64,000 bases of DNA from Haloprofundus salilacus (GTDB lineage Archaea > Halobacteriota > Halobacteria > Halobacteriales > Haloferacaceae), in contig NZ_CP083723.1 of the NCBI RefSeq assembly GCF_020150815.1, positions 1,922,001-1,986,000 of the forward strand, read 5' to 3'. Below, one piece after another: positions 27,521 to 57,923 of this stretch. Position 1 is the first letter of the stretch, and each line of letters opens with the position of its first letter. A model generated the notes under the pieces. The model worked only from the letters and a program-made list of their open reading frames with translations. It ran no database searches and had not been told where the DNA came from. The position numbers and the translations under genes are program-made.

Positions 27521-28546
27521 ATGACGGTGCCCTGCGTACGCGTGCCCGCCTCCGCGGGCGAGGAGACCCGACAGGCGCTCGTCGAGGCGGGCGTCGTCGA
27601 CCACGGTCACGACATCGTCGCCGACGACGGCGTGCTCTACATCCCCGTGACCGACGCAGAGGAGGTCCCGCCCGACTACGAGGTGGTCGACCGCGACGTC
27701 CCCGCCCGGCGACAACAGCAGACTCCCGCCGACCTGCTCGGCTTCGAACCCTCCTACGAGCGACTCGGCGACGTGGTCATCGTCGACGAGGAGGACCCCG
27801 AGCGCGCCCGCGCCGTCGCCGACGCGGTGATGGAGTCCGACGTCCGCGCGAAGACGGTGGTCAACCGCGCCTCGAAGATTCGGGGCGAACTCCGCGTCCG
27901 CGACTGGGAGGTGCTCGTCGGCGACGCTCCCGGCGAACCCACGGGAAGCGGCGGGACTCCGTCTCGCCCGCCGACCGAGACGGTCCACCGCGAGTACGGT
28001 TACGAGTTCCTCCTCGACATCGCCACGGTCTACTTCTCGCCGCGACTGGCGACGGAACGCCACCGCGTCGTCGAACAGGTCGAGGCAGGCGAGCGCGTCT
28101 TCGACATGTTCGCCGGGGTCGGACCGTTCGCGGTTCCGTTCGCCGACGCGGGCGCTGAGGTGGTCGCCGTCGACCTGAATGAGGCGGCCGTCGAGTACCT
28201 GCACGAGAACGCCCGACGAAACGGCGTTTCGGATCGGCTGACGGCGGTTCACGGCGACGTGACCGAAGTGGGGCGGGAGTACGAGAACTGGGCCGACCGA
28301 ATTGTGATGAACCTCCCGCACAGCGCCGACGAGTTCATTGACACCGCCGTCGCCGTCGCGGGCGACGACTGCGTCGTTCACTACTACGACATCCAGCACG
28401 AGGACGACCCGTTCGGTCCCGGTGAGCGGGCGATTCGCACCGCCGCCGAACCCGAGTACGAGGTAACCGTGCTGAACGAACGCGTCGTACGGTCGTATGC
28501 GCCCCACGAGTACAACGTTTGTCTGGACGTTCGGCTGTCGCGGTGA
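27521..28546 (+). CDS. trm5: tRNA (guanine37-N1)-methyltransferase Trm5
   Basis: A protein of 341 residues. An N-terminal D1-like domain (MTVPCVRVPASAGEETRQAL) and a middle DLLGFEPSYERLGDVVIVDE block precede a class I methyltransferase: EYGYEFLLDIATVYFSPRLATER, motif I VFDMFAGVGPFAVPFADAG, VVAVDLNEAAVEYLHENARRN, and the catalytic NLPHSADEFID. This is the archaeal Trm5 order of motifs. It would make m1G37 next to the anticodon. A TATA-like CCTTACTC lies about 30 nt before ATG 27521. A tRNA gene follows. Confidence 0.9.
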   Translation: MTVPCVRVPASAGEETRQALVEAGVVDHGHDIVADDGVLYIPVTDAEEVPPDYEVVDRDVPARRQQQTPADLLGFEPSYERLGDVVIVDEEDPERARAVADAVMESDVRAKTVVNRASKIRGELRVRDWEVLVGDAPGEPTGSGGTPSRPPTETVHREYGYEFLLDIATVYFSPRLATERHRVVEQVEAGERVFDMFAGVGPFAVPFADAGAEVVAVDLNEAAVEYLHENARRNGVSDRLTAVHGDVTEVGREYENWADRIVMNLPHSADEFIDTAVAVAGDDCVVHYYDIQHEDDPFGPGERAIRTAAEPEYEVTVLNERVVRSYAPHEYNVCLDVRLSR

Positions 28547-28630: not shown

Positions 28631-28703
28631 GCCGGTGTAGCTCAGCTGGCAGAGCGATTCCTTCGTAAGGAATAGGCCGAGGGTTCAAATCCCTCCACCG
28701 GCT
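28631..28703 (+). tRNA. tRNA-Thr (anticodon CGT)
   Basis: A full cloverleaf folds over 73 nt: acceptor GCCGGTG / CACCGGC with discriminator T, D-stem GCTC/GAGC, anticodon stem ATTCC/GGAAT with loop TTCGTAA (anticodon CGT, reading ACG), a 5-nt variable loop AGGCC, and T-stem GAGGG/CCCTC with TTCAAAT. CCA is not encoded. There is no intron. The accessory stretch that follows begins right at its 3' end. Confidence 0.97.
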
Positions 28704-29501
28704 TCCATTCTGCGACGAACTTCGTGAGGAGCGAAGCCCGCCAGAGCCGCTTCGCACGGTGAACAGTTCGAATCCAGCATCCCGATCTCAGATACGAGGC
28801 GTCGCCAAGAGACTGTCCTTGGCCGGAGGCCGTGTTCTCGTGGTGAGCGATGGTTGCACGGAGGCTTGATGCGCACGGTCGTCGCTCGTTGAGATGACAA
28901 TTGAGATCCGGATGTTCGATTAAGTGTCCTCGTTGACAAATTACATACCTATAGTCTTAGGGCCGCCACTGATGAGGGTCCCGGGATGATGTTCTATCGG
29001 CGAGTGAAGTTGCACCGAGCAGATGCTCGCTTCAGAGGCACCCAAAAGGGAGAGGTGTGTCAGACCCACGGGGCCCGCAGTGGTGTGTCAGAACCAACGT
29101 TTCCCGTGGGGGAGTGCCGCTACTCCAGTACGCAGTAAGTCCTTCCTGACCATATAACACTGTCCAAATTTGCTTTCCAGTGGACTCTTCTCAAGTATAT
29201 CCACTCACACTCCAGAGAGCGCCGGTCGACCTCGCAGCGACGACGTTTCCGGGTACTCGAAGAGGTGTGTCGGGAAGTTGACTTCTTCACTTCGTCGCCA
29301 CAGAACGGACAGTCGTCAGTCTCGCCGATAATATGTAGATTGGTAATGGCGACCGTCAAAAGAAGTCTGTCCGTGTGCCTACTACGGGGCAGACCCCTTT
29401 CTCGGAGTCGCCACTGATGAGACACTGCCGTACTATAAGCGCTTATCGGATACGCTAAAAGGAAACGTGTAATTCGGTGAGAACGGCGTGTCTGACCGGG
29501 T
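28704..29501. other. Accessory stretch after tRNA-Thr without a supported gene
   Basis: About 800 bp of lower-GC sequence. Open frames on the minus strand (28685-28939, 29120-29425) have no acidic bias, and the first runs into the tRNA. The second encodes one CPFCG but lacks a partner Cys pair of the same spacing and looks like chance. The motif GGTGTGTCAGA occurs twice (about 29053 and 29082). No copy of the tRNA 3' end was found, so an attachment site is not shown. The look is of decayed insertions. Confidence 0.45.
28963..29421 (+). repeat. 13-bp direct repeat CGCCACTGATGAG
   Basis: The sequence occurs at 28964-28976 (preceded by C) and at 29409-29421, in the same orientation and 445 bp apart. 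Together the copies bracket the gene-free stretch. The length is too short to prove transposition but unusual for chance in a 0.5-kb span. Confidence 0.45.
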
Positions 29502-29741
29502 TTAATCGTTCAGGGTGATGTCGGCGACCCCATTTTTGGTGACCAACACATCGTATCCACAGTAGGTGAACTCCACTCGGATGTCGGATTCGGTCCTCTC
29601 GTCCAGCAAGATGGTCTCCAGCGCGTCCGGGTCAACGACTTCGTACAGCGGTGGGTCGAGGTTCTTCGGCTCGGTGTTCTCACACTCAGCCACCCGGTGT
29701 ATCACTTCCTTTGTGATTGACACGGGTGATGATAGGCTCAT
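29502..29741 (-). CDS. HalOD1 output-domain protein (single domain)
   Basis: A protein of 79 residues matching the haloarchaeal output domain HalOD1: SITKEVIHRVAECENTEPKNLDPPLYEVVDPDALETILL, then VEFTYCGYDVLVTKNGVADITL. HalOD1 is usually a stand-alone or receiver-linked domain in haloarchaeal signalling; its target is unknown. ATG 29741 is chosen because a TATA-like element, CTTTTTGTAAG on the minus strand, lies about 27 nt upstream. A longer open frame reaches 29948 but its extra residues are not family-like. Confidence 0.82.
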   Translation of the reverse strand: MSLSSPVSITKEVIHRVAECENTEPKNLDPPLYEVVDPDALETILLDERTESDIRVEFTYCGYDVLVTKNGVADITLND

Positions 29742-30049
29742 ACACTGCTCTATGCGGAAAGAACTTACAAAAAGTATGGGACAGTCGTTCCCGCTGAATT
29801 GAATTGTACCGGCGCGGTCACACGCGGTTGAGCGAAAGCATACGCTCACAACGTTGTGGAAGGGCCCATCCACTCTGCCCACTAAGAGAACAGCAGTAGA
29901 TGGCTGGGTTCGCCGAGCAGCGTCGCGAGTACGCTCTGAAAACGCCATGCCGGTTGGTGGCTGTACGGCCTGTCACGACTGCGGCAGGCTTGCTTGGAGT
30001 TAACGTAGACACCGGATAATTTATCTCATCTTGTTTCCTACAGTCTTAT
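29742..30049. other. Divergent region between two HalOD1 genes
   Basis: A 308-bp AT-richer interval. It holds the leftward promoter described with the 29502 gene and, at 30018-30024, AATTTAT about 28 nt before GTG 30050. No gene is supported within it; the open frames present are shadows. Confidence 0.5.
30016..30026 (+). promoter_or_regulatory. TATA element of the 30050 HalOD1 gene
   Basis: ATAATTTATCT lies 26-32 nt before GTG 30050, which supports a leaderless mRNA and the choice of that GTG as the start codon. Confidence 0.5.
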
Positions 30050-30400
30050 GTGCCTACTACGGGTAAAATTCCACAACCAATCACCTCGCCGGGCATCTCG
30101 GTCCCGACGTACGCGATAGACCTGACGGAAGCGATGGCCGATGGGGAAACGTCTACGGCTATCATCATGTCGATCGCGGCCATCGAGGGACGCGACCCGC
30201 TCGACCTCGACCCGATGTTTGGCGATATCGAGACCGATTCGCTGAACATGATGTTCAAGTCCCAGTCGACCAGTCTGTCCGTGGGGTTCATCACGAACGG
30301 ATGGGACGTCCAACTCTACGGGTCGGGCGAGGCCGTTTTCGAGCGTGAGATTTCGCTGCCAGAGGCTTCCGAGTCGCAGTCGGAGAGACCGACCGCGTAG
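30050..30400 (+). CDS. HalOD1-like output-domain protein
   Basis: A protein of 116 residues. The core (about 30-95) follows the HalOD1 order: a helix STAIIMSIAAIEGRDPLDLDPMFGDIETDSLNMMF, then LSVGFITNGWDVQLYGSGEAVF. It is more divergent than the 29502 protein (FITNGWDV replaces the usual F-Y-GY-V). An N-terminal extension of about 28 residues precedes the domain. The paired, divergent arrangement with 29502 suggests related origin. Function is unknown. Confidence 0.7.
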   Translation: MPTTGKIPQPITSPGISVPTYAIDLTEAMADGETSTAIIMSIAAIEGRDPLDLDPMFGDIETDSLNMMFKSQSTSLSVGFITNGWDVQLYGSGEAVFEREISLPEASESQSERPTA

Positions 30401-30461
30401 CAACGCCATTACGTTTCGGTACCCGACTACAGATACGATAAGCTCTCAGCTCGAAAATCGT

Positions 30462-30659
30462 TCAGTTGGTCGGCTCCCGTTGCGGCTTGCGGTCTTTCCG
30501 TCTGGCATCGACTAATCGCTGGAGCCACTCGACCTGTTCCTCGCTGATTCCGTCTTCGACCGTGGTTCGTGGAGGATTGCCGAGTTTGAGTTCTTCGCTC
30601 GGTCGCCGAGGGTGTCTTTTTGTGCGGCTCGGCTCCCGGTGAGGTGTAACCGCTGTCAT
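30462..30659 (-). CDS. Small basic hypothetical protein
   Basis: A protein of 65 residues, rich in Arg, Lys and Pro, with a central helix SEEQVEWLQRLVDARRKDRK. A TATA-like TTTTATTTTT on the minus strand lies about 28-36 nt before ATG 30659, which supports a leaderless gene despite the atypical basic composition. No domain is recognised. Confidence 0.45.
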   Translation of the reverse strand: MTAVTPHREPSRTKRHPRRPSEELKLGNPPRTTVEDGISEEQVEWLQRLVDARRKDRKPQREPTN

Positions 30660-30760
30660 CTATGTATTTCTAACTCAGCTAGTGAAAAATAAAACTTACC
30701 CAGACGAGAACTGGTCGGCGGTTCGCATCGGCGAGTTAGCTAATCGCCGCAACCGACCAC

Positions 30761-30961
30761 GTGAGAGAACACGTACTCGTTGCGGCCGACAGGTCTGAGG
30801 AGTCCGTGCGTCCCATAGAGCACGCCTTCGGCCTCGGAGACGCTGTCGTCACCGCTAGCACGGTCTTCGACCCGTTCGACATCGACCCGCCTGCCTGGAG
30901 GAGGATCTCATCCACTGCGACCCGTGACGATACACTGGCAGAGCCAGTGGTACTTCGGTAG
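30761..30961 (+). pseudogene. Truncated universal stress protein (UspA) remnant
   Basis: The frame from GTG 30761 encodes a UspA-type start (REHVLVAADRSEESVRPIEHAF) and VFDPFDIDPP, which resembles the second strand region of haloarchaeal Usp proteins. It then loses similarity and stops at 66 codons, against about 140 for the family. The ATP-binding GxxGxxxxG(S) loop is missing. A large part of the 5' half (the LFP..DVTALHV region) also seems deleted. It is most likely a decayed copy. Confidence 0.6.
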
Positions 30962-31015
30962 AGACGCTACAGTCGGCCCGCTCGCGAAATTCCGAATCGA
31001 ACCCGCTTCGTCCGG

Positions 31016-31345
31016 TCAAGGCCACTCGTACGGTAGTTCGTCGCGGTTTCGCTCGACGAGGTCGAGCAGCGGCGTCGCCTCGTCGAACAACACTCCCGGC
31101 CGAACGACCTCGTTCTCTCGGTCCCAGTCGACGAACCCAGCGCGGTCGAGTTCCGGCAGGTGGACATGGTACAGCTGCTCTCTGTCGTTTTCGGTGCCGA
31201 CTTCGGCAATCAGGCGCTCGGTGTAGACCTCCTCTCCGTCGGGCGCAACCCGGTTCACGAACGTGAGGACTCGACGGCGGGTTGGGTCGCTCAACGCGGT
31301 CAGGAGTAGGTCGAGGACGGGCAAACGGTTCTGAGGATCATCCAT
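31016..31345 (-). CDS. ArsR-like HTH protein (DUF7344-type)
   Basis: A protein of 109 residues: LLLTALSDPTRRRVLTFVNRVAPDGEEVYTERLIAEV followed by REQLYHVHLPELDRAGFVDWDRENEVVRPG. This is the winged-helix pattern of the many small haloarchaeal ArsR-like regulators. ATG 31345 (MDDPQNRLP) is preferred; ATG 31402 adds 19 residues. It carries no metal-binding Cys. Targets are unknown. Confidence 0.83.
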   Translation of the reverse strand: MDDPQNRLPVLDLLLTALSDPTRRRVLTFVNRVAPDGEEVYTERLIAEVGTENDREQLYHVHLPELDRAGFVDWDRENEVVRPGVLFDEATPLLDLVERNRDELPYEWP

Positions 31346-31587
31346 GGAGTTTTCGTTCGGTGACTCTCTACGAGTGAGTTCGACGCCGGTATGTATCAAC
31401 ATTGCGTGTCTTCAAATAACTAACTTAAATTCTTAACAGTACGAAAATGAAATTCTGATGACTATCTTCGAGGCGCGAAGAGGTCACTCAAACGTCAGCG
31501 CTCCTCCGTCGCGAATCGACCTGTGCCGCGGGCCGAGCGACGCCCCCGATGCAGACGGTTTATGCGGGCGTGTCGCCGATTCCGACC

Positions 31588-32394
31588 ATGCTCACGTTCA
31601 TCGGACTCGGTCTCTACGACGAGCAGTCGATAACCGTCGAGGGACGGGAGGCGCTTCGGCGCGCAGATCGAGCGTTCGCGGAGTTCTACACCAGCAAACT
31701 CATCGGGACGACGGTTGAGGAACTCGCCGACCACCACAGCGTCGACATCGAGGTTCGCGACCGGGCGGGCGTCGAGCAGGACGCCGAGGCGATTCTCGAT
31801 GCCGCTGAAGACGGCGAGGCGGCGTTTCTCACCGCCGGGGACACGATGATCTCGACGACGCACGTCGACTTGCGCCTGCGGGCGCACGAGCGCGGCATCG
31901 AGACGCGAATCGTCCACGGCGTCACCGCGCAGTCGGCGGCGAGCGGACTCACCGGCTTGCAGAACTACCGGTTCGGAAAAGCGACGACGCTGCCGTTTCC
32001 GTACGCCCACGGCGCGGACGGCACCCCTCGGAGCGTCGTCGACACCTTCGAGGACAACCGCGAGCGCGGCCTCCACACGCTCGTCTACCTCGACATCAAG
32101 GTCGGCTACGAGCGCGCCGGGGTCGACGCCGAGGACGAGTATATGACCGGCGACTTCGCCGCTGGGGAGTTCGCCCGCGACTGGGACGGCGACGCGCTGG
32201 GGGTCGTCGTCGCCCGCGCGGGGAGTCCCGACCCCGTCGTCGCCGCCGACCGCCTCTCGGCGCTGGCCGAGCGTGAGTTCGGCGACCCGCTGCACATGCT
32301 CGTCATCCCCGCGTCGCTGCACGATCTGGAGGCTGAGGCGCTGGAGTCGTTCGGCGGAGTGCCGTCGGAAGTCGTCGACGAAAACACGTACTAA
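31588..32394 (+). CDS. dphB: Diphthine synthase
   Basis: A SAM-dependent tetrapyrrole-methylase-fold enzyme of 268 residues. It starts MLTFIGLGLYDEQSITVEGREALRRAD. It contains the FLTAGDTMISTTHVDLRLRA glycine-rich motif, IVHGVTAQSAASGLTGLQNYRFGKATTLPFPY, and LVYLDIKV. It methylates the modified histidine of elongation factor 2 on the way to diphthamide. ATG 31588 fits the family start; an upstream in-frame ATG at 31549 adds residues without similarity. Confidence 0.95.
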   Translation: MLTFIGLGLYDEQSITVEGREALRRADRAFAEFYTSKLIGTTVEELADHHSVDIEVRDRAGVEQDAEAILDAAEDGEAAFLTAGDTMISTTHVDLRLRAHERGIETRIVHGVTAQSAASGLTGLQNYRFGKATTLPFPYAHGADGTPRSVVDTFEDNRERGLHTLVYLDIKVGYERAGVDAEDEYMTGDFAAGEFARDWDGDALGVVVARAGSPDPVVAADRLSALAEREFGDPLHMLVIPASLHDLEAEALESFGGVPSEVVDENTY

Positions 32395-32445: not shown

Positions 32446-33480
32446 CTACCGGTCACCATCACCTTTGTTGGCGTTGCCATCGCCGCCCTCGCCGCCATTG
32501 TACTCACCGTCGCTATCGACACGCCCGCCGTCGGGTCGCATCTGTCGCCGCGTCTCGGCGTTTTGCGAGACGTCGAGTGCGCCGTGGAGGTCGTACTCTT
32601 CTCGCGTCAGCATGTACAGCACGTCCTCGATGACGGTGAGTAACTCGGGGAGTTCGCGGATGACGAGGTAGGTGATGCCGACGAGCGCGACGACGGCGAG
32701 CAATTGGCTGATGACGCGGTCCGAGAGGAAAAATGACACCATGTACGGGTCCGACGAGCCGAACAGCAGCAGCACCTCGTCGACGAACCACTGCATGTAC
32801 TGCTTGCCGAAGACGATGCCGATGAACGTCGTCCGAAGCAGGTTCAGCGCGTAGATAATGGGGATGGCGATGGCGAGCGCGCGGATTTTTCGACCCAGCG
32901 GCGCGCGGACGGCGGCGATGAGACCCGCGAAGATGGCCATGCTCCCGATGCCAGTGCAAGCGAGGACGACGGAGAACTCCAGATTGTGGCCGTCGGAGTG
33001 GACGAACCGGAACGTATTGTCGTATCCCTCCGGGCCGACGATGGGCGTCGGGTGGTAGCCGAGCAGGTTGATGAGGTAGCCGGTCTGGGCGGCGACGATT
33101 TCGACGAGCACCTCGCGCGGGGAGGGGATCGTTGTCGCGCCGACGGTTATCGCTGGAATCGTCTCGAAGGGGAGGTAGACGACACCCATCACCGCGACGG
33201 CGCGCGAGAGCACGAACAGCGTGTCGCGGCCGCGATGCAGCAACAGCCCCGCGTAGAGGCTGAGCGGGACGGCCGCGAGGCTGAGAACTCCCTCGATGTA
33301 GGATTTGTGCTCAAACGCGAAGTGCGGGAACAGATTGAGCCAGAACAGCGCGAAAGCGACCCACGCGCTCACCATCGTGTAGCGTGCGAGGCGTACGTTG
33401 GCGCGCTCGAACAGCGCGCCGCCGACGAATAACGCGATGGCGACCCACGCGAGGGGGTCGGAGGGAACGACGCCGGGCAT
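32446..33480 (-). CDS. artA: Archaeosortase A
   Basis: A multi-span membrane protein of 344 residues. The catalytic triad of archaeosortases is visible: Cys 175 in VVLACTGIGSMAIFAGL, Arg 216 in ALNLLRTTFIG and Arg 255 in FFLSDRVISQ. ArtA recognises PGF-CTERM tails, cuts near them and links the protein to a membrane lipid. The C-terminal 60 residues are hydrophilic and Gly/Asp-rich. Its gene is next to the S-layer glycoprotein gene, whose product carries a PGF-CTERM tail, as does BtuF in this window. Confidence 0.95.
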   Translation of the reverse strand: MPGVVPSDPLAWVAIALFVGGALFERANVRLARYTMVSAWVAFALFWLNLFPHFAFEHKSYIEGVLSLAAVPLSLYAGLLLHRGRDTLFVLSRAVAVMGVVYLPFETIPAITVGATTIPSPREVLVEIVAAQTGYLINLLGYHPTPIVGPEGYDNTFRFVHSDGHNLEFSVVLACTGIGSMAIFAGLIAAVRAPLGRKIRALAIAIPIIYALNLLRTTFIGIVFGKQYMQWFVDEVLLLFGSSDPYMVSFFLSDRVISQLLAVVALVGITYLVIRELPELLTVIEDVLYMLTREEYDLHGALDVSQNAETRRQMRPDGGRVDSDGEYNGGEGGDGNANKGDGDR

Positions 33481-33622
33481 ACCCGTATCCTTCGCGTGCG
33501 CCGATAAATCCCTTGTCGTCTGTGATAGGGCGGGCGCACGAACGGTTTCGGTGACTGAGTGTCTCGAGTACCGGACGACGCAGCCGTCGCTCGTGGGTAT
33601 AAGTTCGATAAAGGAAGAAGGG

Positions 33623-33680
33623 CCGGGAACGGTCCCGGTGGTTCAGCGTTTAACGCTCGAAAGCAGACTCGTTAGAGTCT
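33623..33680 (-). terminator. Tandem hairpins after the S-layer gene
   Basis: Reading on the minus strand, AGACTC-TAAC-GAGTCT (33680-33665) begins 4 nt past the TAA of the S-layer gene. A smaller AGCGT/ACGCT stem follows, then CCGGGA-CCGT-TCCCGG (33638-33623) with a pyrimidine-rich CCCTTCTTCCTTT run after it. Together they are a plausible 3' end signal for a highly expressed mRNA. Confidence 0.5.
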
Positions 33681-33683
33681 ACT

Positions 33684-35837
33684 TTAGTTGTCGCGGCGGA
33701 CCGCGAGGAGCGCAGCGGCGATGAGCGCGATGAGAGCGACGATGACACCGAAGCCGGGGGTGTCAGTTTCCGTGGTCTGCTCTCCACCAGTCGTGGTCTC
33801 CTCGGGGGTTTCCTCGGTGGTCGTTTCCGTGGTTTCCTCGGTGGTGGTTTCCGTCGTCGTCGTCTCAGTCGTCTCGGTGGTGGTCGTCGTCTCGCCACCA
33901 GTCTGCGTGCCGTTCACGATGGTCGCGTCGTACTCGGTGTCGCCAGCGAAACCAGAGCCGTCCTGGTCGTTGAGCGACAGCGTGAAGTTCGTACCTGCTT
34001 CGAGGTCAGAGAAGTCGAAGGACGCGTTGAACGTGCCGTTCTGACTGACCGTCGTAGTCTGCGTTTCGACGAACGTGTTAGATGCACCGGACTCACTCTG
34101 CGCGCGGATGCGGATCTCGGAGCCAGGCGCGATCGAGGTCTCGCCCTCGACCGTACCGTTCTCGGAGGCAGCAACCTCAACGACATCGTTGTCGTTGGTG
34201 TTGAGCGTTGCCTCACGGTCGACAACCTCGAAGGTCGAACCGACAGTGACGTCGTCATCTTCGACAAGGTCGCCACTTGCAGTCAGCGAGACGTTGAATT
34301 CTTTACCGCTGTCGAACGTGACGGTGTCACCGTTCTCGCGGGTGAGCTCTTCAGATTCCGTGTCGACGACGACGAAGAGGTTGTTGTTCTCGTCGTCGAG
34401 AACAACGTCCTCTGCGGTCAGCTCAGTCGATGCAGCCTCACGGTTTGCACCGGGGTTCATCTCCTCAACGGTGATGGTAAGGTCGTCCGTGTCGCCACGT
34501 TCGAGAGCTCCGAAGAAGCCGGAACCCTGAATCTGGACGACTGCGATGTCGTCTTCAGCGACCGTGTCGGACTGCGTGATTTCGCCGTTCTCGATAGCTT
34601 CGAGGACGTCTTCACGCGAATTATCGCTGTCAACTGCACCAGCGGGCGCAGTCCACGACTGAGCATCCTGGATGGAGCTCTCCGTCACAGCGAGAGTACT
34701 AACGTCCGTCGAGTCGACATCGCTGTCGTCAGCGAAACCGGACGGACCTGCTTCGATGTCGTAGTTGGCCGTGTCGAGAATGCCAGAAACACCGATGTTG
34801 CTCTCGTTGTTGAAGGCGGTGACAGACGAGTCGTCGTCGCCCGAGAGACCGTAGTTGTTCGCTTCAGTCGGGTTGTACGTGTTGATGGTGACGTTCGCAA
34901 CGCCGTCCTCGTCCTCGTCGACGACGGTAGCGTTGACGACGTAGCCGTCGTCGTTGCTACCGATGAGGATGTCGGCTTCTGTCGTGTCATCCATCTGGAC
35001 CTGGAAGGTCGCGGTGTCACCGGATTCGACGTTCACGCTGTTCGGGAGCGAGACAGACTGGGTGACTTCCTCAACCTCAATGGACGTGGAGTCCTCTGCG
35101 GTCGTATCAGCGACCGAGAACGTGAAGTTGTACTGGCCAGGGCTGACATCAGAGAAGTCAGCCGTGTAGTCATCGCCCTTGTTGAAGTTCTGGAGGACAA
35201 CGTCGCCGTCGTCGTTCTCAGTGACCTGGAAGTCTTCCGCTCCAGGGCTTTCGACTTCGTTACCCTCGAAGAGGGCGGCGATCTCGTCGTTGTCTAGGCC
35301 CTCTGCTTCGACGACGAGGTCGAACTCGGATCGAACGGCGGAGTCAACGTTGAGCTCCGTCTCGCTGCCCTCGTCAATCGTCTCCTCCTCGAAGGAGGCA
35401 GAGATGTCCTGCTCCGTGACGTCGAAGGAAGCGCTGCTGAGAGTGGTACCAGATTGGTCACTATCAACAGTCCCGTCAGTCACCGAGAGAGGCGTACCAC
35501 GGTTGTCAGCCTCAACGAGTGCGTAGGAACCGGTTCCGAGGGAACTGGTGTCGATGATGGCCGAACCGTCTGCATCCGTAGTGAACGAGTAGACGGTCGA
35601 ACCGAGGGAGCCGTCATCAACGGTACGAATTTGGTAGCTTACTTCTGTACTTTCACCGCTGTCAACGTAGAGCTCCTGACCCTGGTAAAACAGACTCCCA
35701 GAATTGAGGTCTGAATCAGCGTCAGCAGCATTTGCCGCAGCAGCCGTTCCTGCAAACGCGACGGTCCCCGCGAAAACGGAGAACACCATCAGCGCAGCAA
35801 GGAATACTGCACGGAACTTCTGTGTTGTTTGTGTCAT
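33684..35837 (-). CDS. csg: S-layer glycoprotein with PGF-CTERM tail
   Basis: A protein of 717 residues and the likely main cell-surface lattice protein. A Sec signal peptide covers about 1-35 (MTQTTQKFRAVFLAALMVFSVFAG ... AAA). The mature part is highly acidic with several immunoglobulin-like repeats and N-glycosylation sites (for example NFT, NVT, NES, NGT). A Thr/Glu-rich linker of about 50 residues near the C-terminus is a probable O-glycosylation zone. PGFGVIVALIALIAAALLAVRR is the PGF-CTERM signal for archaeosortase A. ATG 35837 is preferred over ATG 35861. Codon use is unusually AT-tolerant for the window, as seen in highly expressed genes. Confidence 0.93.
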   Translation of the reverse strand: MTQTTQKFRAVFLAALMVFSVFAGTVAFAGTAAAANAADADSDLNSGSLFYQGQELYVDSGESTEVSYQIRTVDDGSLGSTVYSFTTDADGSAIIDTSSLGTGSYALVEADNRGTPLSVTDGTVDSDQSGTTLSSASFDVTEQDISASFEEETIDEGSETELNVDSAVRSEFDLVVEAEGLDNDEIAALFEGNEVESPGAEDFQVTENDDGDVVLQNFNKGDDYTADFSDVSPGQYNFTFSVADTTAEDSTSIEVEEVTQSVSLPNSVNVESGDTATFQVQMDDTTEADILIGSNDDGYVVNATVVDEDEDGVANVTINTYNPTEANNYGLSGDDDSSVTAFNNESNIGVSGILDTANYDIEAGPSGFADDSDVDSTDVSTLAVTESSIQDAQSWTAPAGAVDSDNSREDVLEAIENGEITQSDTVAEDDIAVVQIQGSGFFGALERGDTDDLTITVEEMNPGANREAASTELTAEDVVLDDENNNLFVVVDTESEELTRENGDTVTFDSGKEFNVSLTASGDLVEDDDVTVGSTFEVVDREATLNTNDNDVVEVAASENGTVEGETSIAPGSEIRIRAQSESGASNTFVETQTTTVSQNGTFNASFDFSDLEAGTNFTLSLNDQDGSGFAGDTEYDATIVNGTQTGGETTTTTETTETTTTETTTEETTETTTEETPEETTTGGEQTTETDTPGFGVIVALIALIAAALLAVRRDN

Positions 35838-36397
35838 GGTTTTGTGCTTAGTCGGCGACAACCACTTTCGCCCGTGCCTGGATACCGAAACGCCCAGCGG
35901 AGTGCCGGACTTGGCGAGGGATACTCGTCGATGCCACCATGGGTAGGGGTACGCTCAAATGCTTATCCTCTCATTATAAATGCTTTGTGGTAAATAACGG
36001 GATTTGTCAATCAGTCACACGGCCGAATTCAGGAGGGAGAGCGCCTCTGCTGCAGATACAGGGTTAAGTATTTTGTGTCTGACTTCTTCAATTGTTGATA
36101 GCTCCAATCCGAGGTTTTACCGCCTGACACCCGAAAAACCGGAGGTTTACCGGAATATGCGAAAAGTGGGTCGTCGAGGCGGGTGCCGGATTAATTTCTA
36201 AACCAAACTGTGTGGTTCGGTGGACGTTCGTCTCAATTATCGTGTACATCGAGGTCCGCGTTCGGCTGCGTGTATATGTCTACGTGTACGCGTGGACGAC
36301 CATACTTGGTCCGCACCACGAAGAATCGGGATTCCGCCTGCGAGAGGGCGGAGCGAAACTACGCCAGGTCGCGACCACGTCGAGAACGGCGAGTTAA
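35838..36397. other. S-layer gene upstream region and gene-free stretch
   Basis: A 560-bp interval. It contains the S-layer promoter (next entry) and a leader of about 110 nt. The remaining 36000-36397 is AT-richer and shows only short unsupported frames. The 3' end of the VOC gene lies at 36398. Confidence 0.5.
35973..35982 (-). promoter_or_regulatory. TATA box of the S-layer gene
   Basis: On the minus strand CATTTATAAT is a near-ideal archaeal TATA box. Transcription would start about 25 nt downstream, near 35948, giving a 5' leader of roughly 110 nt before ATG 35837. Most genes in this window instead look leaderless. Confidence 0.6.
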
Positions 36398-57671: not shown

Positions 57672-57923
57672 ATGCCACTGTCAGAGTACACCGGCCGACG
57701 GCCGCGCGGCGCGAACCGGAGCGTCCGCATCAGTCGCGCCGTCAAACACCACCGATGGCAACCGGACGGCGAACCCTCCGAACCGTGTGCCAACTGCGGC
57801 ATCGACCTCTCGCTACACGAGCGACACGTTCTCGTCACGTTGGTCGAAGACGACTTCGGCGACGCCGCTCGCCGGTATCTTTGCGACGAATCCTGTCTCC
57901 GCGAGTGGGTAGGCAAGAGTTAG
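57672..57923 (+). CDS. Small zinc-binding protein (DUF7576-like)
   Basis: A protein of 83 residues. CANC and a later CDESC (about 43-46 and 72-76) frame RHVLVTLVEDDFGDAARRYL. This C-x2-C ... C-x3-C arrangement resembles a treble-clef or TRASH-like metal site found in haloarchaeal DUF7576 proteins. A basic N-terminal stretch (GRRPRGANRSVRISRAVKHHR) may bind nucleic acid. TATA-like GGTTTATCGG lies about 27 nt before ATG 57672. Confidence 0.75.
   Translation: MPLSEYTGRRPRGANRSVRISRAVKHHRWQPDGEPSEPCANCGIDLSLHERHVLVTLVEDDFGDAARRYLCDESCLREWVGKS

Follow-up and report, generated by a model that had tools for sequence, protein, structure and literature searches.

A conserved hairpin RNA candidate in an AT-rich island next to tRNA-Thr of Haloprofundus salilacus, with relatives in hafunavirus-type proviruses

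The 64,000-nucleotide (nt) stretch of the Haloprofundus salilacus genome analyzed here (NZ_CP083723.1, positions 1,922,001 to 1,986,000; hereafter the window) contains an AT-rich island directly after a tRNA-Thr(CGT) gene, and on the minus strand of this island lies a 68-nt hairpin, which is very probably a real structured RNA gene. An earlier note on the same DNA had described the tRNA gene and the looser, AT-richer sequence behind it, and missed the hairpin. The composition agrees with that description. The GC content is 0.566 in the island and 0.646 in the rest, and none of 223 segments of equal length sampled elsewhere is as GC-poor, although the margin is small since the lowest of them reaches 0.569. 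The GC profile drops from 66-70% to 54-58% directly past tRNA-Thr and rises again at about 31550, slightly beyond the end at 31402 given in the earlier note. It is flanked on the left by a trm5/TYW2-type gene and on the right by a gene that we take to be dph5 (diphthine synthase), which has a single match per genome in all five genomes of the genus in our collection (G000, which is the genome of the window, G001, G002, G003, and G004). The features of the locus are listed in Table 1.

Table 1. Features of the island and its flanks (positions in the window)
Feature	Position	Strand	Basis or remark
trm5/TYW2-type tRNA methyltransferase, left flank	27521..28546	+	PF02475
tRNA-Thr (CGT)	28631..28703	+	ARAGORN, Rfam; proposed integration site
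AT-rich island	28738..31548	.	GC content and profile
Structured hairpin RNA candidate, 68 nt	29347..29414	-	Fold, conservation, homologues
Promoter side of the hairpin RNA, conserved in part	29415..29490	-	58% invariant columns, spacing, alignment
HalOD1-A, single-domain	29502..29741	-	PF18545, 73.5 bits, 1.5e-20
Weak DNA similarity (43 nt) to the region where the terminase small subunit gene starts in both proviruses	29786..29830	.	blastn
TGTGCCTACTACGGG, 5' end of HalOD1-B	30049..30063	+	Reverse complement, without mismatch, of the apical part of the hairpin
HalOD1-B, single-domain; GTG start, probably leaderless	30050..30400	+	PF18545, 42.2 bits, 9e-11
Small basic open reading frame (ORF), 65 aa	30462..30659	-	No Pfam match
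Usp-like fragment	30761..30961	+	18.6 bits, below the 24-bit Pfam cut-off
DUF7344 (helix-turn-helix (HTH)-type) protein	31016..31402	-	PF24035, 36.8 bits, 5.2e-9
Tetrapyrrole-methylase-fold protein, right flank	31591..32394	+	PF00590

The hairpin consists of a basal stem (GGCGAC/GUCGCC), a long upper stem, an apical stem (CCGU/ACGG), and a 9-nt loop, AGUAGGCAC. It belongs to a noncoding block between the tRNA gene and HalOD1-B that is conserved in G000, G001, G002, and G004, and it is the most conserved part of the island, with 65 of its 68 columns invariant in the four species. In the same comparison, 267 of 348 columns are invariant in HalOD1-B and 672 of 798 (84%) in dph5, while the promoter side of the hairpin retains 43 of 74 (58%) and the other flank only 10 of 59 (17%). 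The excess over HalOD1-B, dph5, and this latter flank indicates purifying selection on the hairpin. The minus strand folds with a minimum free energy of -33.4 kcal/mol (z -3.8), and the plus strand has a z of -3.6. Covariation in the upper stem was evaluated on alignment A11, which holds 10 matches with E values up to 0.006 from eight sources, eight of them distinct; the second hairpin of the virus HRTV-25, a hairpin at locus L063 (E 0.16), and chance-like matches are not part of it. Ten of the 15 pairs are changed on both sides, and 96.6% of the cells are paired. The covariation score is 0.719, compared with 0.278 for shuffled alignments (standard deviation 0.045, 0 of 500 as high) and at most 0.236 when slid. 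G-U pairs occur at several positions on the modelled strand and would be C/A mismatches on the other, which assigns the RNA to the minus strand. A CTTATA box lies about 23-25 nt ahead of the basal stem, and at this spacing a transcript would begin near the first bases of the stem. Judged by sequence, the genus and the main copy of each provirus described below have a TATA-like box at a nearly equal distance from the basal stem, and the second provirus copies have none. Conservation, structure, strand, homology, the promoter-like box, and a 15-nt complementarity to HalOD1-B all come from computation on the sequence; in addition, we infer that the hairpin is transcribed.

The tRNA is the sole match over threshold in Rfam 15, and no Rfam family matches at the hairpin even at E values up to 5. 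The CTGATGAG motif near 28968 and 29414 was considered as a hammerhead and rejected, as Rfam gives it no support. The ends of the hairpin (GGCGAC/GTCGCC) appear unlike the consensus core sites of integron attC. A zinc-ribbon ORF (29120-29425) shares its strand with the hairpin and overlaps it, and it is matched in relatives only over its first 25-28 residues, which are hairpin DNA; for these two reasons it is not counted as a gene. A 22-nt direct repeat (82%) links 28955-28976 with 29400-29421 and includes the outer end of the hairpin. Its first copy lies within a block absent from the other species, and the repeat may be what is left of a second hairpin, since two copies are present in the viruses.

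Relatives of the hairpin were searched with a model (R1) and a broader version of it (R2). R1 finds a single copy in the own genome and, in 170 genomes of the family, four strong matches that are all within the genus and two weak ones. In 392 genomes of the order, two further strong matches are found, in G428 (7e-9) and G324 (5e-8), each accompanied by a weaker second copy that has the same orientation and lies about 1 kb off. In both genomes the hairpin sits in a tailed provirus, flanked by the terminase small subunit gene and the rightward genes, with genes for both terminase subunits (small and large), portal, and protease nearby. HRTV-25 (NC_062759; Laminvirus, Hafunaviridae) has a terminase small subunit with 59% identity to the one in G428. 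At the corresponding position beside the gene for it, two HRTV-25 hairpins carry the loop CGTGGTAGGCAAGCGG, a likeness to the hairpin of the window. R2 adds G016, where the hairpin is located in an AT-rich island directly past a tRNA-Gly gene together with a broken HF2-type integrase. This island (L145:5138-12950, G016:C1) is about 8 kb long, follows tRNA-Gly(tcc), and contains a 1132-aa ORF besides the hairpin; it parallels the island of the window as a second relic. R2 also suggests a hairpin at L063, strongly folded and again next to the gene for the terminase small subunit. A loop scan of the genome collection returned one archaeal record, Halospeciosus flavus, and six bacterial records that we took as chance. 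In viral contigs, two exact loop patterns gave zero matches and a looser pattern gave 18, none with a convincing hairpin. The weak matches L037, L038, L029, and L030 (R1) and L133-L142 (R2) were judged to be chance, being either without the loop or coding-like DNA.

The surroundings of the hairpin are also partly shared with the proviruses. HalOD1-A and the HalOD1 protein of the provirus at L039 (9441-9692) are mutual best matches (50% identity over 68 aa, 66-67 bits) in a comparison that covered 15 loci out of the 31 HalOD1 matches of the genome, and the next-best match of HalOD1-A is a paralogue from its own genome (57 bits). In both places the HalOD1 gene is directly upstream of the hairpin, ending 87 nt from it on the same strand in the window and 53 nt from it in L039, and a DUF7344 gene downstream of the hairpin is also present in L039. 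The weak similarity to the terminase start region (E 0.026 to both L039 and L040) is collinear with HalOD1-A and the hairpin and is not significant alone. HF2 likewise has a HalOD1 gene beside the terminase small subunit gene, and no hairpin was found in the stretch of HF2 searched with the model. The phage attachment site (attP) of HF2 can be aligned to the tRNA-Thr of the window over about 60 nt. HF1-group viruses are reported to use a partial tRNA-Thr as attP, with two proviruses integrated in tRNA-Thr (PMC7230728), and integrases are reported to be encoded by all Hafunaviridae (PMC8651126). The integrases of the G428 provirus are related to those found in tRNA-Thr intervals of relatives; tRNA-Ala is called near both of its ends, which indicates that the target tRNAs vary. 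Taken together, the hairpin RNA gene probably derives from a hafunavirus-type element, judging by sequence homology, and we infer a viral origin for the island as well. The window differs from a Hafunaviridae provirus in that no terminase, portal, integrase, or att repeat was found in it. A comparable tRNA-Thr remnant without an integrase has been described in Haloquadratum (PMC3119063). Island DNA matches plasmid records only at the tRNA and its edge and matches no phage records.

Two further structures were observed in the proviruses and viruses. Past the provirus hairpin (L039:9800-9850 and L040:10050-10100), the segment GGTCGCC.TTAAGCGACC could fold in competition with the basal stem and is followed by a short T run, a switch- or terminator-like arrangement that is not seen in the window. 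Type II hammerheads are present in four of four virus or provirus stretches (L039:15515-15580, L040:17368-17436, L060:10523-10596, and L063:693-759). The halovirus type II hammerhead (RF02276) is a structured RNA of the same virus genomes and lies elsewhere in them.

The viral setting raises the question of whether the hairpin acts as DNA, that is, as a packaging, replication, or recombination site near the end of the virus genome, of which the chromosomal copy would be a fossil. Its place beside the terminase small subunit gene and near the end of the linear HRTV-25 record would suit such a site, as would the paired same-orientation copies in L039 and L040 and the absence of a TATA box from the second copies. 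We nevertheless consider this improbable: the genus and the main copy of each provirus share a TATA-like box at near-equal spacing, the G-U pairs are consistently on one strand, and a fossil would not hold 65 of 68 columns invariant while its flank drops to 10 of 59.

As an RNA, the hairpin has a candidate target next to it. A 15-nt direct repeat underlies the match: the apical part is the exact reverse complement of the opening 15 nt of the HalOD1-B mRNA, provided that this mRNA starts leaderless, as the TATA-like sequence upstream of the gene suggests. The 13-mer TGCCTACTACGGG occurs exactly twice in the genome, in the hairpin and at the HalOD1-B start. Around this start 33 of 33 columns are invariant in the four species, compared with 77% for the gene, and the third codon positions are invariant in all of the first nine codons and in 66 of the 107 that follow. 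Among 282 mechanically listed ORF starts, that of HalOD1-B gives the best duplex energy with the RNA (-30.3, the next being -20.4), and the RNA and HalOD1-B are found in the same four genomes. These sequence relations suggest antisense control of HalOD1-B by the hairpin RNA, a role that we put forward tentatively and at somewhat less than even confidence. The hairpin might instead be kept for its 9-nt loop (RGUAGGCAM), through which it would bind a host protein or a different conserved target, as would be the case in the viruses, the HalOD1-B match being secondary or coincidental. Such binding would account for virus copies in which the loop is constant, the stems change, and no mRNA target was found, and we regard it as a minority possibility that deserves attention. 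It leaves unexplained the unique 15-nt match at the 5' end of the neighboring gene in three of four species and the 33/33 conservation there; moreover, relative to the provirus copy L039b, both differing bases in the segment shift towards complementarity.

The trm5-dph5 distance is 3.0 kb in the window, 3.2 kb in G001, 2.4 kb in G002, 2.7 kb in G004, and 0.9 kb in G003. The order of HalOD1-B, the basic ORF, and the DUF7344 gene is common to three of the four congeneric genomes (G001, G002, and G004), so these genes predate the species and are not specific to it. Approximately 28738-29340 and most of 29494-30000 (the HalOD1-A block) are absent from these three genomes, and G003 retains only the basic ORF. 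Across the family, tRNA-Thr(CGT) is present in all 40 trm5-dph5 intervals fetched, which cover a subset of the genomes whose two flanking genes share a contig and lie no more than 20 kb apart. Interval length across the family starts at 0.16 kb and exceeds 20 kb at the upper end, and the tRNA-Thr/dph5 interval contains phage-type integrases in at least three of the 40 relatives, a minimum count as the integrases were first picked by motif. With such varied lengths and integrases in relatives, the site looks like an insertion hotspot in these sequences. The earlier note's proposal of horizontal acquisition at the tRNA is therefore borne out in part, by the integrases in relatives and by the hairpin and its order with HalOD1-A in a hafunavirus-type provirus; the other part of the picture is the gene order shared with three of four congeners, which that note would have counted against it. 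The shared genes, together with the absence of an integrase or att repeat from the window, would also fit an ordinary variable locus of the host lineage, non-mobile and AT-rich from low constraint, from which the viruses took the hairpin. We find this unlikely, given the spread of interval lengths and the integrases inside them in relatives, and given that every convincing hairpin outside the genus belongs to a virus, to a provirus, or to a tRNA island whose integrase is broken. Side observations were made on the flanks. The trm5-type gene of G001 (C1:1811628-1812713) is matched as two separate pieces, suggesting a frameshift or insertion. Downstream of dph5 (32446-35861), an exosortase/archaeosortase-like gene (PF09721) stands beside a large surface-glycoprotein-like ORF that is also AT-richer than its surroundings.

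The protein genes named in the earlier note are present. Both HalOD1 genes score above the Pfam cut-off of 26.3 bits, the small basic ORF has a counterpart of 78-85% identity in all four other genomes of the genus, and the HTH gene belongs to DUF7344, with matches of 45-50% identity in three congeners. The supposed Usp remnant gives a Usp-like match, which is weak and has no counterpart in the congeneric genomes. HalOD1-A is unmatched at the tRNA-Thr/dph5 locus in the four congeneric genomes, and the HalOD1-B orthologue is limited to G001, G002, G004, and the own genome among 167 genomes of the family; the two genes thus have different histories, A being at the locus only here and B only in four species of the genus. 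An AlphaFold model of HalOD1-A built from two sequences was too poor to use (mean pLDDT 61.6). The earlier note had read the island as a horizontally acquired signalling module of two HalOD1 proteins, a reading suggested by two such genes lying within 0.6 kb in an AT-rich, tRNA-adjacent island. Nothing in the analysis shows such a module, and we consider it very unlikely: the two genes differ in distribution, no kinase or receiver partner was found among the island ORFs tested, and HalOD1 itself is not rare, with 31 matches in the genome including these two.

We propose that a hafunavirus-type element (HRTV-25/HF-like tailed haloviruses) integrated at tRNA-Thr(CGT) and decayed, and that host-lineage genes were later mixed into it. 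Its functional remnant would be the small RNA gene, with its own promoter and a start near the base of the long hairpin, kept by selection in four species of the genus. Its most likely present role would be antisense: by base-pairing of its loop with the initial 15 nt of the leaderless HalOD1-B mRNA, the RNA would keep ribosomes from entering at that start. Taken whole, a decayed hafunavirus-type element retaining an RNA gene that may act as an antisense RNA on HalOD1-B, this reading seems to us evenly poised between right and wrong. Several results weigh against it. As the earlier note had stated, the window yields neither an integrase, the HF2 enzyme as query having zero matches, nor a duplicated tRNA end beyond chance, the best repeat score being reached by 34 of 100 shuffles. 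No PHROG or Pfam match to terminase, portal, or other structural virus genes was found among the island ORFs tested. The covariation draws on few rows (eight distinct), and aligning them with the model favors structure. With opening costs included, HalOD1-B ranks second of the 282 starts (-7.6 kcal/mol), behind a frame at 57755 (-11.9), the co-occurrence of the RNA and HalOD1-B is based on a single contrast within the genus (G003), and the loop of G004 has one mismatch to its HalOD1-B start. The loop complement, taken as a 13-mer with at most one mismatch, occurs in G428, G324, and HRTV-25 at the hairpins and at four other places, none of which resembles a leaderless gene start. Since no gene-start target was found in the virus-bearing genomes, the pairing, if real, is a feature of the genus and not of the whole family.

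HalOD1 in haloviruses, integration at tRNA-Thr, and the hammerhead ribozyme of HF1-group haloviruses are already in print (PMC5847659, PMC7230728). Stand-alone HalOD1 proteins, which HalOD1-A and HalOD1-B resemble, are listed for haloarchaea and for HF1, HF2, HGTV-1, HRTV-5, HRTV-8, and HSTV-2 (PMC5847659); here one of them may be controlled by a linked RNA, and no such control is described in the literature consulted on these proteins. No earlier report of the hairpin was found in the literature searched, which mostly did not extend to subscription papers. What appears new is a provirus remnant that would keep a conserved structured RNA. Experimentally shown intergenic small RNAs (sRNAs) of Haloferax volcanii include sRNA132 (PMC6560208) and s479 (PMC8155600). 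Like them, the hairpin, predicted from sequence, would be a short intergenic RNA with a proposed mRNA target; s479 contacts znuC1 through its 3' end (PMC8155600), whereas the apical loop of the hairpin would pair with a leaderless 5' end.

The family of covarying hairpin RNAs, which lacks an Rfam match and is common to hafunavirus-type elements and a host genus, can be tested directly in haloarchaea, and HalOD1 gains a concrete genetic context in viruses and hosts. Leaderless transcripts are the main mRNA class in Haloferax, with 72% of protein-coding transcripts (PMC4983044), and PMC8155600 treats sRNA control of their translation as an open question, which could be tested with a linked pair of RNA and target at a leaderless start. 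More speculatively, and with considerable doubt, a halovirus RNA family with a fixed loop and covarying stems would have been domesticated on the host chromosome, its loop retuned to pair with the 5' end of a leaderless HalOD1 mRNA. If true, Archaea would have a host antisense RNA that derives from a virus and acts on a leaderless start.

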